From Candidatus Scalindua sp. (GTDB lineage Bacteria > Planctomycetota > Brocadiia > Brocadiales > Scalinduaceae), in assembly GCA_030748215.1 (NCBI GenBank), contig JASMMK010000044.1, positions 1-43,294 of the forward strand: a stretch of DNA of 43,294 bases, in the 5' to 3' direction. Below, in pieces: positions 26,323-30,924 of this stretch. The position numbers were made by a program, and so were the translations under genes. Every line of letters starts with the position of its first letter. Position 1 is the stretch's first letter. A model generated the notes under the pieces. It ran no database searches, was not told the origin of the DNA, and saw nothing but the letters and a program-made list of their open reading frames with translations.

Positions 26323-27648
26323 ATGGCAACTATATTACCGTTCAGAGGGCTTAGATATAACCCTGAAAAAATAAAAGATATTTCGAAAGTAATTACTCCT
26401 CCTTATGACGTTATCTCAGAAAAGGAGAGAGATGACTATTACGAACTCCACCCGGACAACATCATACGACTGATCCTGAGTAAGGAACTTCCCGGCGATG
26501 ATCAATCTAATAATAAATATTCAAGGTCTGGAGAATTCTTTGATACATGGAGAAAGGAAGAAGTTCTGAAAGAGGAAGCAGAACCCGCTATATACATTTA
26601 TGCACAAGAGTTCACTTTATCAGACAAGAAATATACACGAAGGGGATTCATCTCCTTAGTAAAGCTGGAAGATTTTCAAACAGGAGAAATTTATCCTCAC
26701 GAGCATACACTTGCAAAGCCAAAAGAAGACAGGATGAATTTGATGAAGGCCTGTAACGCAAATCTAAGCCAGGTATTTACATTCTTTGAAGATGAAGATG
26801 CTAAAATAGCCAGTTTCTTACATAAAGCATCTGAAGGAGACCCGGATATCGATTTTACAGATATTTATGGCGTCAAGAATTCGCTCTGGGCCATAAAAGA
26901 TAAAGCGGTTATTGAAAAGTTAATTGCACAAATGAAGGACAGGGCGCTGTTCATAGCAGACGGGCACCACCGCTATGAAACGGCACTGTTTTATAGAGAT
27001 CTTGTGAATGGAACGAAAAAGGAGCAGAACGGTAACGAAGACTCTCCAGCCGACTATATCATGATGATGTGCGTCTCTATGGAAGATCCGGGGCTTGTGA
27101 TTTTGCCAACACATAGACTGGCCAGGAATATAGAAAACCTTGATCCCGAAAAGGTTAAGAGTTCACTAAATGAGGTTTTTGATGTCAGTGACTTGGGAAG
27201 TGATTGCAATGCAGAAACATTTGAACTAAAACTCAGCGAAGATGCTCATAAACATAAAATTGGTATGTACATAGGTGAGAGCGACAAAAAATTCTATATT
27301 CTAACCCTGCGTGATGAAAGACTTCTCGACCCGATTTTGACAGGTGAATATGTTGAATGGAAGTCTATTGATACAGGGATCTTACACGGCGTCATATTTG
27401 ACAGGGCACTGGGCATTCAGGCAAAAAATATTTCCAAATCTGAAAACGTCAAATACAATCAAGGCGTAGAAGACTCGGTTGCAAAGGTAAACGAAGGAGA
27501 ATACCAGATCGCTTTTTTCCTCAATCCTACAAAAATAGGTCAGATAAAGGACATTGCAACTAAAAGGCATAAGATGCCCCCTAAGGCAACATATTTCTAC
27601 CCTAAACTTATGACTGGAATGGTTGTCAGACATATTCCCGGCACCTAG
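26323..27648 (+). CDS. DUF1015 family protein
   Basis: A 441-residue cytoplasmic protein. It opens ILPFRGLRYNPEKIKDISKVITPPYDVI and has YPHEHTLAKPKEDRM and FIADGHHRYETALFYRD; all are hallmarks of DUF1015, whose members are widespread in anaerobes. No function has been established for the family to my knowledge. The conserved DGHHR and HEHT histidines could bind metal or phosphate, but that is inference. It is set apart from pta by a terminator-like hairpin and from the SAM riboswitch by its own stop, so it is probably transcribed alone. Confidence 0.9.
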   Translation: MATILPFRGLRYNPEKIKDISKVITPPYDVISEKERDDYYELHPDNIIRLILSKELPGDDQSNNKYSRSGEFFDTWRKEEVLKEEAEPAIYIYAQEFTLSDKKYTRRGFISLVKLEDFQTGEIYPHEHTLAKPKEDRMNLMKACNANLSQVFTFFEDEDAKIASFLHKASEGDPDIDFTDIYGVKNSLWAIKDKAVIEKLIAQMKDRALFIADGHHRYETALFYRDLVNGTKKEQNGNEDSPADYIMMMCVSMEDPGLVILPTHRLARNIENLDPEKVKSSLNEVFDVSDLGSDCNAETFELKLSEDAHKHKIGMYIGESDKKFYILTLRDERLLDPILTGEYVEWKSIDTGILHGVIFDRALGIQAKNISKSENVKYNQGVEDSVAKVNEGEYQIAFFLNPTKIGQIKDIATKRHKMPPKATYFYPKLMTGMVVRHIPGT

Positions 27649-27734: not shown

Positions 27735-27843
27735 GACTTATCAAGAGTGGTGGAGGGAATGGCCCTGGGAAACCACAGCAACCGGTCTTGGCGGAATGTC
27801 AGGATGCTGGTGCTAACTCCTACCTGCTAGGGGAAGATAAGAT
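27735..27843 (+). promoter_or_regulatory. SAM-I (S-box) riboswitch aptamer
   Basis: The P1 strands CTTATC (27737-27742) and GATAAG (27836-27841) enclose the conserved S-box core. It has AGAGTGGTGGAGGGAATGG, then CCTGGGAAACCACAGCAACC with the kink-turn, then GGTGCTAACTCCTACCTG. These blocks and their spacing are diagnostic of SAM-I. The RNA binds S-adenosylmethionine and lowers expression when SAM is plentiful. The 3' P1 strand can alternatively pair with TTCTTATCTT (27863-27872) to form an antiterminator. It controls the threonine-synthase-like gene and probably the carrier protein gene. Confidence 0.96.
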
Positions 27844-27856
27844 AAGAATGTCGCGG

Positions 27857-27895
27857 AGCCCCTTCTTATCTTGTGATTAAGAAGAGGCTTTTTTT
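27857..27895 (+). terminator. Riboswitch expression-platform terminator
   Basis: AGCCCCTTCTT (27857-27867) pairs with AAGAAGAGGCT (27879-27889) with one mismatch and an 11-base loop, followed by a T run to 27895. The 5' strand overlaps the antiterminator segment, so SAM binding would release it to terminate transcription before the start codon at 27916. Confidence 0.9.
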
Positions 27896-27915
27896 ATTAA
27901 TATCTGGAGATGAAT

Positions 27916-29160
27916 ATGAGCTTTGTTAAAGGTCTTAAATGCAGAGAATGCGGGAAAGGTTACCCTAAAGAAGCTCTTCATGTTTGCAGTTTCTGCTTTG
28001 GTCCGCTGGAAGTAGATTACGAATATGAGGAAATAAAGAAAGTAATAAGCCGGGAAAAGATTGAGTCACGAGGAAAAACCATGTGGAGGTACAAGGAGCT
28101 TTTGCCTCTTGACGGTGAACCTACTGTGGGGACTCAGGTTGGGTATACGCCACTTGTAAAAGCTGATAATTTAGCCAAGAAACTTGGTGTAGAAGAACTA
28201 TATGTAAAAAATGATTCTGTAAATTATCCCACGTTTTCTTTTAAAGACAGAGTCGTTTCTGCCGCCCTTTCCAAGGCTAAAGAGCTCGGCTTCAAAACAG
28301 TTGCATGTGCCACTACCGGTAACCTGGGGAACTCTGTTGCTGCGCAGGCAGTTCAGGGTAACCTTGAAAGCTATATCTTTATGCCCTCCAATCTGGAGCA
28401 GGGAAAAGTTATAGGCACATCAATTTATGGAACAAACGTGATCGGCATAAAAGGTAATTACGATAATGTAAACAGAATGTGCTCAGAGATTGCGGACAAA
28501 TACGGTTGGGCCTTCGCGAACATTAACCTCCGTCCATATTACGCGGAAGGTTCTAAAACGTACGGCTATGAAATTGCAGAGCAGCTTGGCTGGAAGGCTC
28601 CCAAACACGTAGTTGTACCTATGGCAGGCGGTTCTCTGATAATTAAGATAGGCAAAGCAATAAAAGAAATGATAGATCTGGGATTGATTGAGAAATCCAA
28701 TATGGCACTCTATGGCGCACAGGCTTCCGGTTCTTCACCAATTACTACCGCTGTAAAGAAAGAGAGTGATGTAATCGCTCCTGTTATACCGGATACGATA
28801 GCACATTCCATAGCGATTGGAAATCCGGCAGACGGATATTACTCAGTTAAGGCCATTAATAACAGCGGTGGATGTGCTGAAGATGTTTCTGATGAAGAAC
28901 TGGTTGAGGGAATAAAACTCCTGGCTTCAACAGAAGGCATTTTCACAGAGACCGCGGGAGGCGTAACCGTGGCTGTAACGAAAAAACTTATAGAGCAGGG
29001 TAAGTTGCCGCGAGATGAGTCTATCGTCATGTGTATCACGGGTAACGGCCTGAAAACTCTCGAAGCAGTAATGGATAAAGTAGAAAAACCGTGCGCTATT
29101 GAAGCAAACATAGAGAGTTTTAACGCGATTATGGAGAAAAAAGAAGCCTGTACTGTTTAG
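27916..29160 (+). CDS. Threonine-synthase-like PLP enzyme under SAM control
   Basis: A 414-residue fold-type II PLP enzyme. An N-terminal zinc ribbon (Cys9, Cys12, Cys24, Cys27) is followed by GYTPLVKADNLAKKLG, the PLP lysine Lys110 in PTFSFKDRV, and an unusual phosphate-loop region ATTGNLGNSVAAQA. Typical threonine synthases read STGNTSAS or similar there. The C-terminal motif TETAGGVTVAV matches the family. GGAG stands 6 bases before the ATG at 27916, which is preferred over 27910. By family it would convert O-phosphohomoserine to threonine. The SAM riboswitch and the adjacent CysO-like carrier point instead to sulfur transfer, giving homocysteine. That reassignment is inference; plain threonine synthase remains the alternative. 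Confidence 0.85.
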   Translation: MSFVKGLKCRECGKGYPKEALHVCSFCFGPLEVDYEYEEIKKVISREKIESRGKTMWRYKELLPLDGEPTVGTQVGYTPLVKADNLAKKLGVEELYVKNDSVNYPTFSFKDRVVSAALSKAKELGFKTVACATTGNLGNSVAAQAVQGNLESYIFMPSNLEQGKVIGTSIYGTNVIGIKGNYDNVNRMCSEIADKYGWAFANINLRPYYAEGSKTYGYEIAEQLGWKAPKHVVVPMAGGSLIIKIGKAIKEMIDLGLIEKSNMALYGAQASGSSPITTAVKKESDVIAPVIPDTIAHSIAIGNPADGYYSVKAINNSGGCAEDVSDEELVEGIKLLASTEGIFTETAGGVTVAVTKKLIEQGKLPRDESIVMCITGNGLKTLEAVMDKVEKPCAIEANIESFNAIMEKKEACTV

Positions 29161-29167
29161 GCTTTTT
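29144..29167 (+). terminator. Weak intrinsic terminator overlapping the stop of the ThrC-like gene
   Basis: AAGCCT (29144-29149) pairs with AGGCTT (29159-29164) around the stop codon, and a short T run follows. The stem is only six pairs, so it would reduce rather than block reading into the carrier gene. Further on, TTCTGTT-C-AACAGAA (29201-29215) is a near-perfect palindrome in the 108-base gap. Confidence 0.35.
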
Positions 29168-29268
29168 GGCAACACGCATAAGATTCAATAGAACACAGAA
29201 TTCTGTTCAACAGAAAAAAGAATAATATTCCAGGACAACCTATATTATCAAAAGAAAGAGGTGTCGTT

Positions 29269-29553
29269 ATGTCGGTTAAAGTAAGAATTCCAACACCATT
29301 AAGGTCATTAACAAACGGATCAGAAGAAATTACTGTTGAAGGTGGCTCTATCAAAGAAGTAGTTGATAATCTTGAATCCAAACACAATGGGTTTAAAGAA
29401 CGTCTCTGCGATGAAAACGGGCAAATCAGGAGGTTTATTAATATATACCTTAATGATGAAGATATAAGGTTTAAAGATAATCAGGAAACTCAGGTCAGTG
29501 ATGGAGATCAAATTTCAATAATTCCGGCAATTGCAGGGGGAAAAACTCTCTAA
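29269..29553 (+). CDS. MoaD/ThiS-family sulfur carrier, CysO-like
   Basis: A 94-residue beta-grasp protein. VKVRIPTPLRSL at the start, RFINIYLNDEDIRF in the middle and ISIIPAIAGG near the end closely parallel mycobacterial CysO (as I recall it). CysO carries sulfur as a C-terminal thiocarboxylate for CysM. The Gly90-Gly91 pair is not terminal: KTL follows, so a protease would have to remove three residues first, as the JAMM-type HcyD does for HcyS in Wolinella. AGAGGTG lies 5 bases before the ATG. It follows the ThrC-like gene on the same strand, and no activating E1-like enzyme or protease is in the window. A role in molybdopterin synthesis is possible, but the sequence is nearer CysO than MoaD. 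Confidence 0.88.
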   Translation: MSVKVRIPTPLRSLTNGSEEITVEGGSIKEVVDNLESKHNGFKERLCDENGQIRRFINIYLNDEDIRFKDNQETQVSDGDQISIIPAIAGGKTL

Positions 29554-30303: not shown

Positions 30304-30555
30304 GAAAACAACCTTTTCCGTGTAGAAAAACCACAATTTAACCATACAAAACTATCGATCCTCTTTTCGCACATATTCCTTTAGTTGTCAATTCTTTTTA
30401 AAAATTTAAAACTTTGAAAAAGAAATGAAATTACTACAGTTTTATAAGTACCTCATGGGACATCCACAAAATCTACTTGACGATGTCGTCCATTTTTTTT
30501 AGTATTAAGTTTCGTAGCAAGTTATTGTAATCGTTAGAAATTGGCGGTAATTAAA

Positions 30556-30924
30556 ATGGCAAAAGTCAGATGTCCCGGTAGCATGAAGACCATGGTTCCC
30601 GAACCACTTGAAAGAAAGTGTCCAAAATGCGGTAGCATGATTGAAATCTGGAGCGACGAGGAAAAAGCCGACTGTACATGTGGTGAAACCGTATTTAAAG
30701 ACGCAGCCCCTACGTGTGTGGTTTGGTGCAGTGCTGCAGAAGAGTGCCTGGGAGACATTTTTGATGTCAAACAGATGAAGGAAGACGCAAAGAAGAAAGC
30801 GGCTGCGGAAGGGAATCCTGAATTCGTCGCTCAGGTAGCAGAAAAAATAAAGAAAGAAAAAGATAGTAAAACCTGCGATAAGGTAAAAGAGGAATTTAAG
30901 AAAGTAAAAGATAAAGACAGCTAG
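30556..30924 (+). CDS. Cysteine-rich zinc-ribbon-like small protein, function unknown
   Basis: A 122-residue protein from ATG 30556, with GGCGGT about 8 bases upstream. Eight cysteines fall in the first 64 residues (6, 22, 25, 40, 42, 54, 58, 64). They include CPKC, CTC and a CVVWCSAAEECLG segment, so one zinc ribbon plus a second metal or disulfide site is likely. After residue 70 the protein is a charged, lysine/glutamate-rich helix ending KKVKDKDS. I recall similar small proteins with an N-terminal AKVRCPG in other anaerobes, without an assigned function. It appears to be monocistronic. Iron-sulfur binding is an alternative to zinc. Confidence 0.75.
   Translation: MAKVRCPGSMKTMVPEPLERKCPKCGSMIEIWSDEEKADCTCGETVFKDAAPTCVVWCSAAEECLGDIFDVKQMKEDAKKKAAAEGNPEFVAQVAEKIKKEKDSKTCDKVKEEFKKVKDKDS

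Follow-up and report, generated by a model that had tools for sequence, protein, structure and literature searches.

Homocysteine synthesis that depends on a sulfur carrier was reportedly described for Wolinella by Krishnamoorthy and Begley in 2011, with HcyS, HcyD and HcyF acting together with MetY and with the involvement of a JAMM protease and an E1 enzyme. HcyS is said to have residues after its Gly-Gly, which HcyD is said to trim, and MetY is said to belong to the PF01053 family. In mycobacteria, Mec+ is likewise a JAMM enzyme. It is part of the CysO/CysM/Mec+/MoeZR system, within which it acts on the C-terminus of CysO (available part of PMC3227635).

The closest described system is that of Streptomyces, in which MetM is a homologue of threonine synthase (ThrC) and MetO a sulfur carrier (Hasebe et al., 2024, AEM 90:e01247-24, cited in the available sections of PMC12172450). 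The title of Hasebe et al., as given there, names O-phospho-L-homoserine, and the metM gene of S. albulus is reported to have an upstream SAM riboswitch (PMC12172450). The same sections describe a sulfur-carrier gene beside the thrC of Microcystis that is related to that of S. albulus. The Microcystis ThrC homologue, which is 51.6% identical to MetM and adjoins this metO-like gene, was characterized as a threonine synthase and deaminase and gave no rise of methionine in cells, and an unidentified peak near methionine was recorded in that study with O-phosphohomoserine and sulfide (PMC12172450).

The window analyzed here is a stretch of 43,294 nucleotides from Candidatus Scalindua sp. (assembly GCA_030748215.1), namely positions 1-43,294 of the forward strand of contig JASMMK010000044.1, the contig 44 of a 2.44 Mb genome that consists of 66 contigs and is 94.9% complete. 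On the + strand a SAM-I aptamer, an attenuation platform, a ThrC-family ORF and a ThiS/MoaD-family ORF follow one another in this order. Judged from sequence comparison, this locus is very probably a metM-metO operon under SAM-I control that belongs to the carrier-dependent route to homocysteine already published.

The original prediction of a complete S-box aptamer with antiterminator and terminator was confirmed. The aptamer (27735-27843, + strand) matches Rfam family RF00162 over its full length (model positions 1-108 of 108) at 74.7 bits (E 7.7e-16), where the gathering score is 44.4; nothing else in the window reaches an Rfam gathering score, and the 2.44 Mb genome gave no second SAM-I match. 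As read from the sequence, P1 is formed by 27737-27742 paired with 27836-27841, and an antiterminator (27836-27872, + strand) arises from the exact complementarity of 27839-27848 to 27863-27872, in competition with both P1 and the 5' arm of the terminator. The intrinsic terminator (27857-27895, + strand), recognized from sequence and fold, has arms at 27857-27868 and 27878-27889 followed by a T tract; a pattern scan for terminators did not list it because its loop has 9 nt and the scan permits 3-8. The fold of 27735-27925 exceeds shuffled sequences just mildly in stability (z -2.01). Read in this way, the platform is the usual layout in which SAM would stop transcription.

The first gene (27910-29160, + strand) is assigned to the ThrC family by a TIGR00260 score of 286.6 bits (cut-off 167.1) together with a PALP match, and it has the zinc-ribbon cysteines C11, C14, C26 and C29 at its N-terminus, in agreement with the zinc-ribbon ThrC-like PLP enzyme originally proposed. 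Residue numbers are counted here from ATG 27910, although ATG 27916 appears the likelier start because the GGAG at 27906-27909 touches ATG 27910. Six near-full-length loci in Candidatus Scalindua and Candidatus Brocadiaceae records encode proteins 86-92% identical to this enzyme; for a C-terminal fragment in a further Scalindua record the identity is 96%. By homology, the predicted PLP lysine is K112, which is kept throughout an alignment of 74 distinct clade sequences, a set that differs from the 74 genomes of the survey below and leaves out four sequences of family f25.

In threonine synthase, an arginine of the pocket loop holds the substrate phosphate. At this loop the four aligned threonine synthases of solved structure have N-P-x-R-x-E-G, and the window's enzyme has L-R-P-Y-Y-A-E-G. 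Eleven residues (N206, R208, Y211, A239, K246, C191, V115, V116, E163, N188 and D308) occur in every one of the 74 clade sequences and in none of eight comparison proteins, which comprise seven plasmid-borne proteins and the second ThrC of the genome itself. The four f25 sequences retain the clade-specific residues, yet they have neither SAM-I nor a nearby carrier. Cys191 (codon 191 from 27910) is shared by the 74 clade sequences and these four, and by none of the eight comparison proteins.

A quick maximum likelihood tree of 62 of the 86 prepared sequences, in which Streptomyces MetM and the second ThrC were not included (the latter being used in the residue alignments), separates 55 MetM-like sequences, among them those of actinomycetes with SAM-I and carrier, from the seven plasmid proteins with an SH-aLRT of 100, the outgroup being long-branched. 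Six of these plasmid proteins are annotated as threonine synthase, and L130 carries no annotated feature. The actinomycete relatives compared are about 50% identical to the window's enzyme, and its kinship to the tested Streptomyces MetM is indirect, by way of these relatives. An AlphaFold model built from 13 sequences (mean pLDDT 75.8, pTM 0.79) retrieved threonine synthases exclusively among its 19 best Foldseek matches, but the placement of its domains is poor, given an rmsd of 11-13 Å and TM values of 0.64-0.76 to the query; since residues 203-213 have a pLDDT below 50, no argument on pocket-loop geometry is drawn from it.

The second gene (29269-29553, + strand) encodes a ThiS/MoaD-family protein (PF02597, 57.5 bits). 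Among solved structures, this protein is nearest to 4n6e chain B (89.1 bits), followed by 3dwg chain C (82.1 bits), which is mycobacterial CysO. A CysO-like beta-grasp protein had been foreseen at this position; what had gone unmentioned is a tail after its Gly-Gly. The protein ends in PAIAGG-KTL, with the Gly-Gly at 29536-29541 and Lys-Thr-Leu at 29542-29550, so that the Gly-Gly is not terminal. Of the 38 carriers within the order, 34 extend by 1 to 24 residues past a Gly-Gly that is kept while the tails vary. Among 25 carriers from other orders, Gly-Gly is terminal in 20, is followed by one or two residues in two and by a 96-residue extension in three. The carriers of family f39 (L084, L085 and L087) are those with 96 residues past Gly-Gly; in L085 this extension contains a NIL domain according to Pfam, and the other two look alike by eye.

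A variable tail behind an invariant Gly-Gly suits a propeptide that would be cleaved, and since residues follow its Gly-Gly, the carrier should need trimming. The obvious candidate for the cutter is a JAMM protein encoded on contig 12 of the same genome, the only genome in which this gene was sought, because Mec+ acts on the C-terminus of CysO and because HcyD reportedly trims HcyS in Wolinella.

The distribution of these genes was surveyed at E <= 1e-80 in 393 sampled Planctomycetota genomes, each at least 90% complete. The enzyme was found in 74 of them, including 42 of the 44 genomes of this order (the two without it at this threshold being G157 and G247). SAM-I lies upstream of the enzyme at gathering score in 65 of the 74 genomes and is absent at that score in seven (L083, L085, L086 and L114-L117); the remaining two sequences (L113, L118) start inside the enzyme gene, and their upstream regions fall outside the sequence. 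For 11 of the 65, strand and distance were determined by script, and all 11 riboswitches are on the strand of the gene, 98-397 nt upstream. A carrier gene is located within 1.7 kb downstream of the enzyme in 63 genomes and is lacking from that interval in nine (L073, L076, L078, L100, L112 and L114-L117), while two contigs (L082, L103) end too early to show it. Within the order alone, 38 of the 42 genomes with the enzyme have SAM-I upstream and 38 have the carrier downstream. SAM-I and carrier are both present in 58 of the 74 genomes with the enzyme, and because the order of SAM-I, enzyme and carrier recurs in this many Planctomycetota genomes, a chance arrangement is excluded. The anticipated co-occurrence of this ThrC branch with carriers and SAM riboswitches was thus found.

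Some genomes deviate from this arrangement. Family f25 (L114-L117, four of the 74) retains the enzyme but lacks both SAM-I and a nearby carrier, and in five further genomes SAM-I is present without a carrier gene in the 1.7 kb interval. In genus g5 (L073, L076, L078), SAM-I precedes metM, but the 1.7 kb downstream of it contain no carrier gene. When eight loci lacking SAM-I were searched for RNA families below threshold, one weak SAM-I came up (L085, 33.9 bits), and four subthreshold matches to unrelated families were taken as chance. Among the named loci, some of which are from the same genomes as those of the survey, SAM-I was detected in 13 of the 14 scanned (L043 being negative); the fifteenth locus, L044, begins within the gene and is not among them. 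In the actinomycete Nonomuraea gerenzanensis, too, SAM-I is followed by the enzyme and then by the carrier, and its enzyme falls in the MetM-like clade of the tree. An apparent MetM-MetO fusion in an actinomycete (L040) was rejected, as its 545-residue frame is a different reading frame.

A DUF1015 gene (PF06245; window positions 26323-27648) is situated directly upstream of the riboswitch, and ORFs that look DUF1015-like by eye are upstream of metM in seven of the eight loci L030-L037, the exception being L034. A small Cys-rich ORF at 30541-30924 gave no match in Pfam and NCBIfam searches, and ORFs resembling it by eye occur near metM in L031, L032 and L034.

Along with the original prediction it had been proposed to look in the genome for a second thrC, for the genes of conventional homocysteine synthesis, and for a JAMM protease and an E1-like enzyme. 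A second ThrC is present on contig 36, with 27% identity and a TIGR00260 score of 213 bits (cut-off 167.1). No conventional homocysteine gene was recognized among those searched, which were PF01053 (MetB/MetC/MetY/MetZ), HcyBio and MetX: PF01053 gave weak partial matches at eight places, all of which proved to be BioF/KBL, NifS/SufS-type or aminotransferase proteins, MetX (TIGR01392) had no match in the genome, and HcyBio/DUF39 (PF01837) had none at E <= 0.01. A CysM-like protein is encoded on contig 2. Only two ThiS-family carriers exist in the genome, and the one outside the window, on contig 15, lies beside an ORF that looks thiG-like from its sequence.

The single JAMM protein is encoded on contig 12 in a row of genes (L018:2355-5255) whose other products are a protein with the N-terminal domain of siroheme synthase, one of sulfite/nitrite-reductase type (135 bits for sulfite_red_C, which is below the cut-off) and a DsrE-like protein. 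In its composition this row looks like a putative module for the transfer of sulfur from sulfite to a carrier. Two ThiF-family E1-like proteins were found, one of them MoeB/UbaA-like (contig 57) and the other (contig 35) adjoining a TIGR01977 cysteine desulfurase, the two together spanning L020:6588-8901. Because proteins of these same two families, ThiF and TIGR01977 desulfurase, come after metM and metO in Singulisphaera (L042:6749-9035), the contig-35 pair suggests itself as a candidate for the loading of MetO.

In the mechanism that we propose, the antiterminator would form when SAM is low, and the operon would be transcribed. Probably the single JAMM protease would cut MetO back to its Gly-Gly end. 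An E1-like enzyme (the MoeB/UbaA-like protein of contig 57 or the ThiF-like protein beside the cysteine desulfurase of contig 35) would adenylate the carrier, which would then be converted into thiocarboxylated MetO. The Streptomyces MetO of Hasebe et al. 2024 reportedly donates its sulfur as a thiocarboxylate, and the published MetM is said to use O-phosphohomoserine. MetM of the window would take O-phosphohomoserine and eliminate its phosphate through PLP, and addition of the carrier sulfur at the gamma carbon would give homocysteine. Alternatively, the product may be a MetO-homocysteine adduct that would be cleaved by the JAMM enzyme, as Mec+ does for CysO-cysteine. Threonine would be made by the second ThrC, encoded on contig 36, and homocysteine would be methylated afterwards by another enzyme.

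The membership of the enzyme in the ThrC family, with a TIGR00260 score above the cut-off, and the precedent of the Microcystis homologue, which is a threonine synthase and deaminase in the available account (PMC12172450), would also accord with an ordinary or bifunctional threonine synthase that is SAM-controlled by happenstance, the carrier serving in another sulfur pathway. We regard this as improbable, given that a second ThrC exists on contig 36, that N-P-x-R-x-E-G is replaced by L-R-P-Y-Y-A-E-G, that all 74 clade sequences share R208 and Y211, and that SAM-I in 65 of 74 genomes points to methionine. The same departure of the pocket-loop residues from threonine synthase could also reflect another reaction of the pair, either sulfur transfer to an activated homoserine other than O-phosphohomoserine or the synthesis of some other thiol compound linked to SAM. 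However, a search for MetX gave no match and hence no source of acetylhomoserine, and the published relatives reportedly use O-phosphohomoserine, which the title of Hasebe et al. also names, so that this reading is extremely unlikely.

The carrier raises another alternative, since among solved structures it is closest to CysO-type proteins and a CysM-like gene is present in the genome: it could be the CysO of that CysM-like enzyme, and the pair would then make cysteine with the ThrC-like enzyme as a helper. The CysM-like gene is however on another contig, whereas SAM-I and the ThrC-type enzyme adjoin the carrier, and we consider a cysteine role of the pair very unlikely; the carrier itself may serve both the cysteine and the homocysteine routes.

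Methionine synthesis is a recurrent gap in accounts of anammox bacteria, as far as the available parts of these papers go. In Brocadia, methionine was marked with a question mark, methionine synthase being present and the other steps not identified (PMC5460018). Neither cystathionine beta-lyase nor gamma-synthase was reported in any of the anammox MAGs of another study, and a benefit from ammonia oxidisers was suggested (PMC6714388), while a third noted the same gap and suggested supply by Chloroflexota (PMC9909701); in the view of these last two studies, partner organisms would provide amino acids or methionine. With the operon the missing homocysteine step has a concrete candidate, and therefore the inferred methionine dependence of anammox bacteria may be a gap in annotation; a MetM/MetO route would show a way in which bacteria regarded as incapable of methionine synthesis may achieve it. 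The gap that remains exposed is the last methylation step, as PF02574 (the MetH homocysteine domain) and PF01717 (MetE) both have no match in the window's genome, the only one searched for PF01717, and PF02574 occurs in only five of 59 genomes of the order. The enzyme for this step either lies in the missing 5% of the genome, or is of MetE type in other genomes, or belongs to an unrecognized type. It can be speculated, as a rather doubtful extension, that anammox bacteria are methionine prototrophs by means of a pro-carrier matured by JAMM (whose gene is clustered with those of a siroheme-type sulfite reductase and of a DsrE-like sulfur protein), of MetM acting on O-phosphohomoserine, and of a methionine synthase outside MetH (PF02574) and MetE (PF01717).

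With the Wolinella HcyS route, the locus shares a carrier with residues past Gly-Gly and a genome with JAMM and E1 genes. Unlike the HcyS/MetY pair, the window's enzyme belongs to the ThrC family, and no PF01053 homocysteine enzyme was found in its genome, all eight matching places being other PLP enzymes. With canonical threonine synthase (TIGR00260) the enzyme has family, fold and PLP lysine in common, but it differs in its conserved pocket-loop residues, its SAM-I control and its carrier neighbour. The mycobacterial CysO system resembles the proposed one in carrier family, E1 activation, the use of a phosphorylated amino acid (there O-phosphoserine) and a protease acting at the carrier C-terminus, whereas that system makes cysteine with a CysM-type enzyme (available part of PMC3227635). 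Gly-Gly also forms the very C-terminus of the solved CysO chain (3dwg), and the window's carrier continues with KTL at this point.

The strongest likeness is to Streptomyces, where a ThrC-homologous PLP enzyme is likewise paired with a sulfur carrier, whose gene is adjacent here, and where, as for metM of S. albulus, a SAM riboswitch lies upstream of the enzyme (available sections of PMC12172450). The original prediction that a ThrC paralogue makes homocysteine with carrier sulfur stands in outline, the genome checks being favourable and the chemistry published; the idea is not new, because this mechanism has been published for Streptomyces MetM/MetO (Hasebe et al., 2024). A literature search gave no paper linking anammox bacteria to MetM/MetO among the matches listed, which is not proof of absence. 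What sets the present locus apart is its host, an anammox planctomycete, and a carrier whose three-residue tail past Gly-Gly should need trimming. On these comparisons, the predicted system is the published one in a further lineage, with the twist of a putative pro-carrier.
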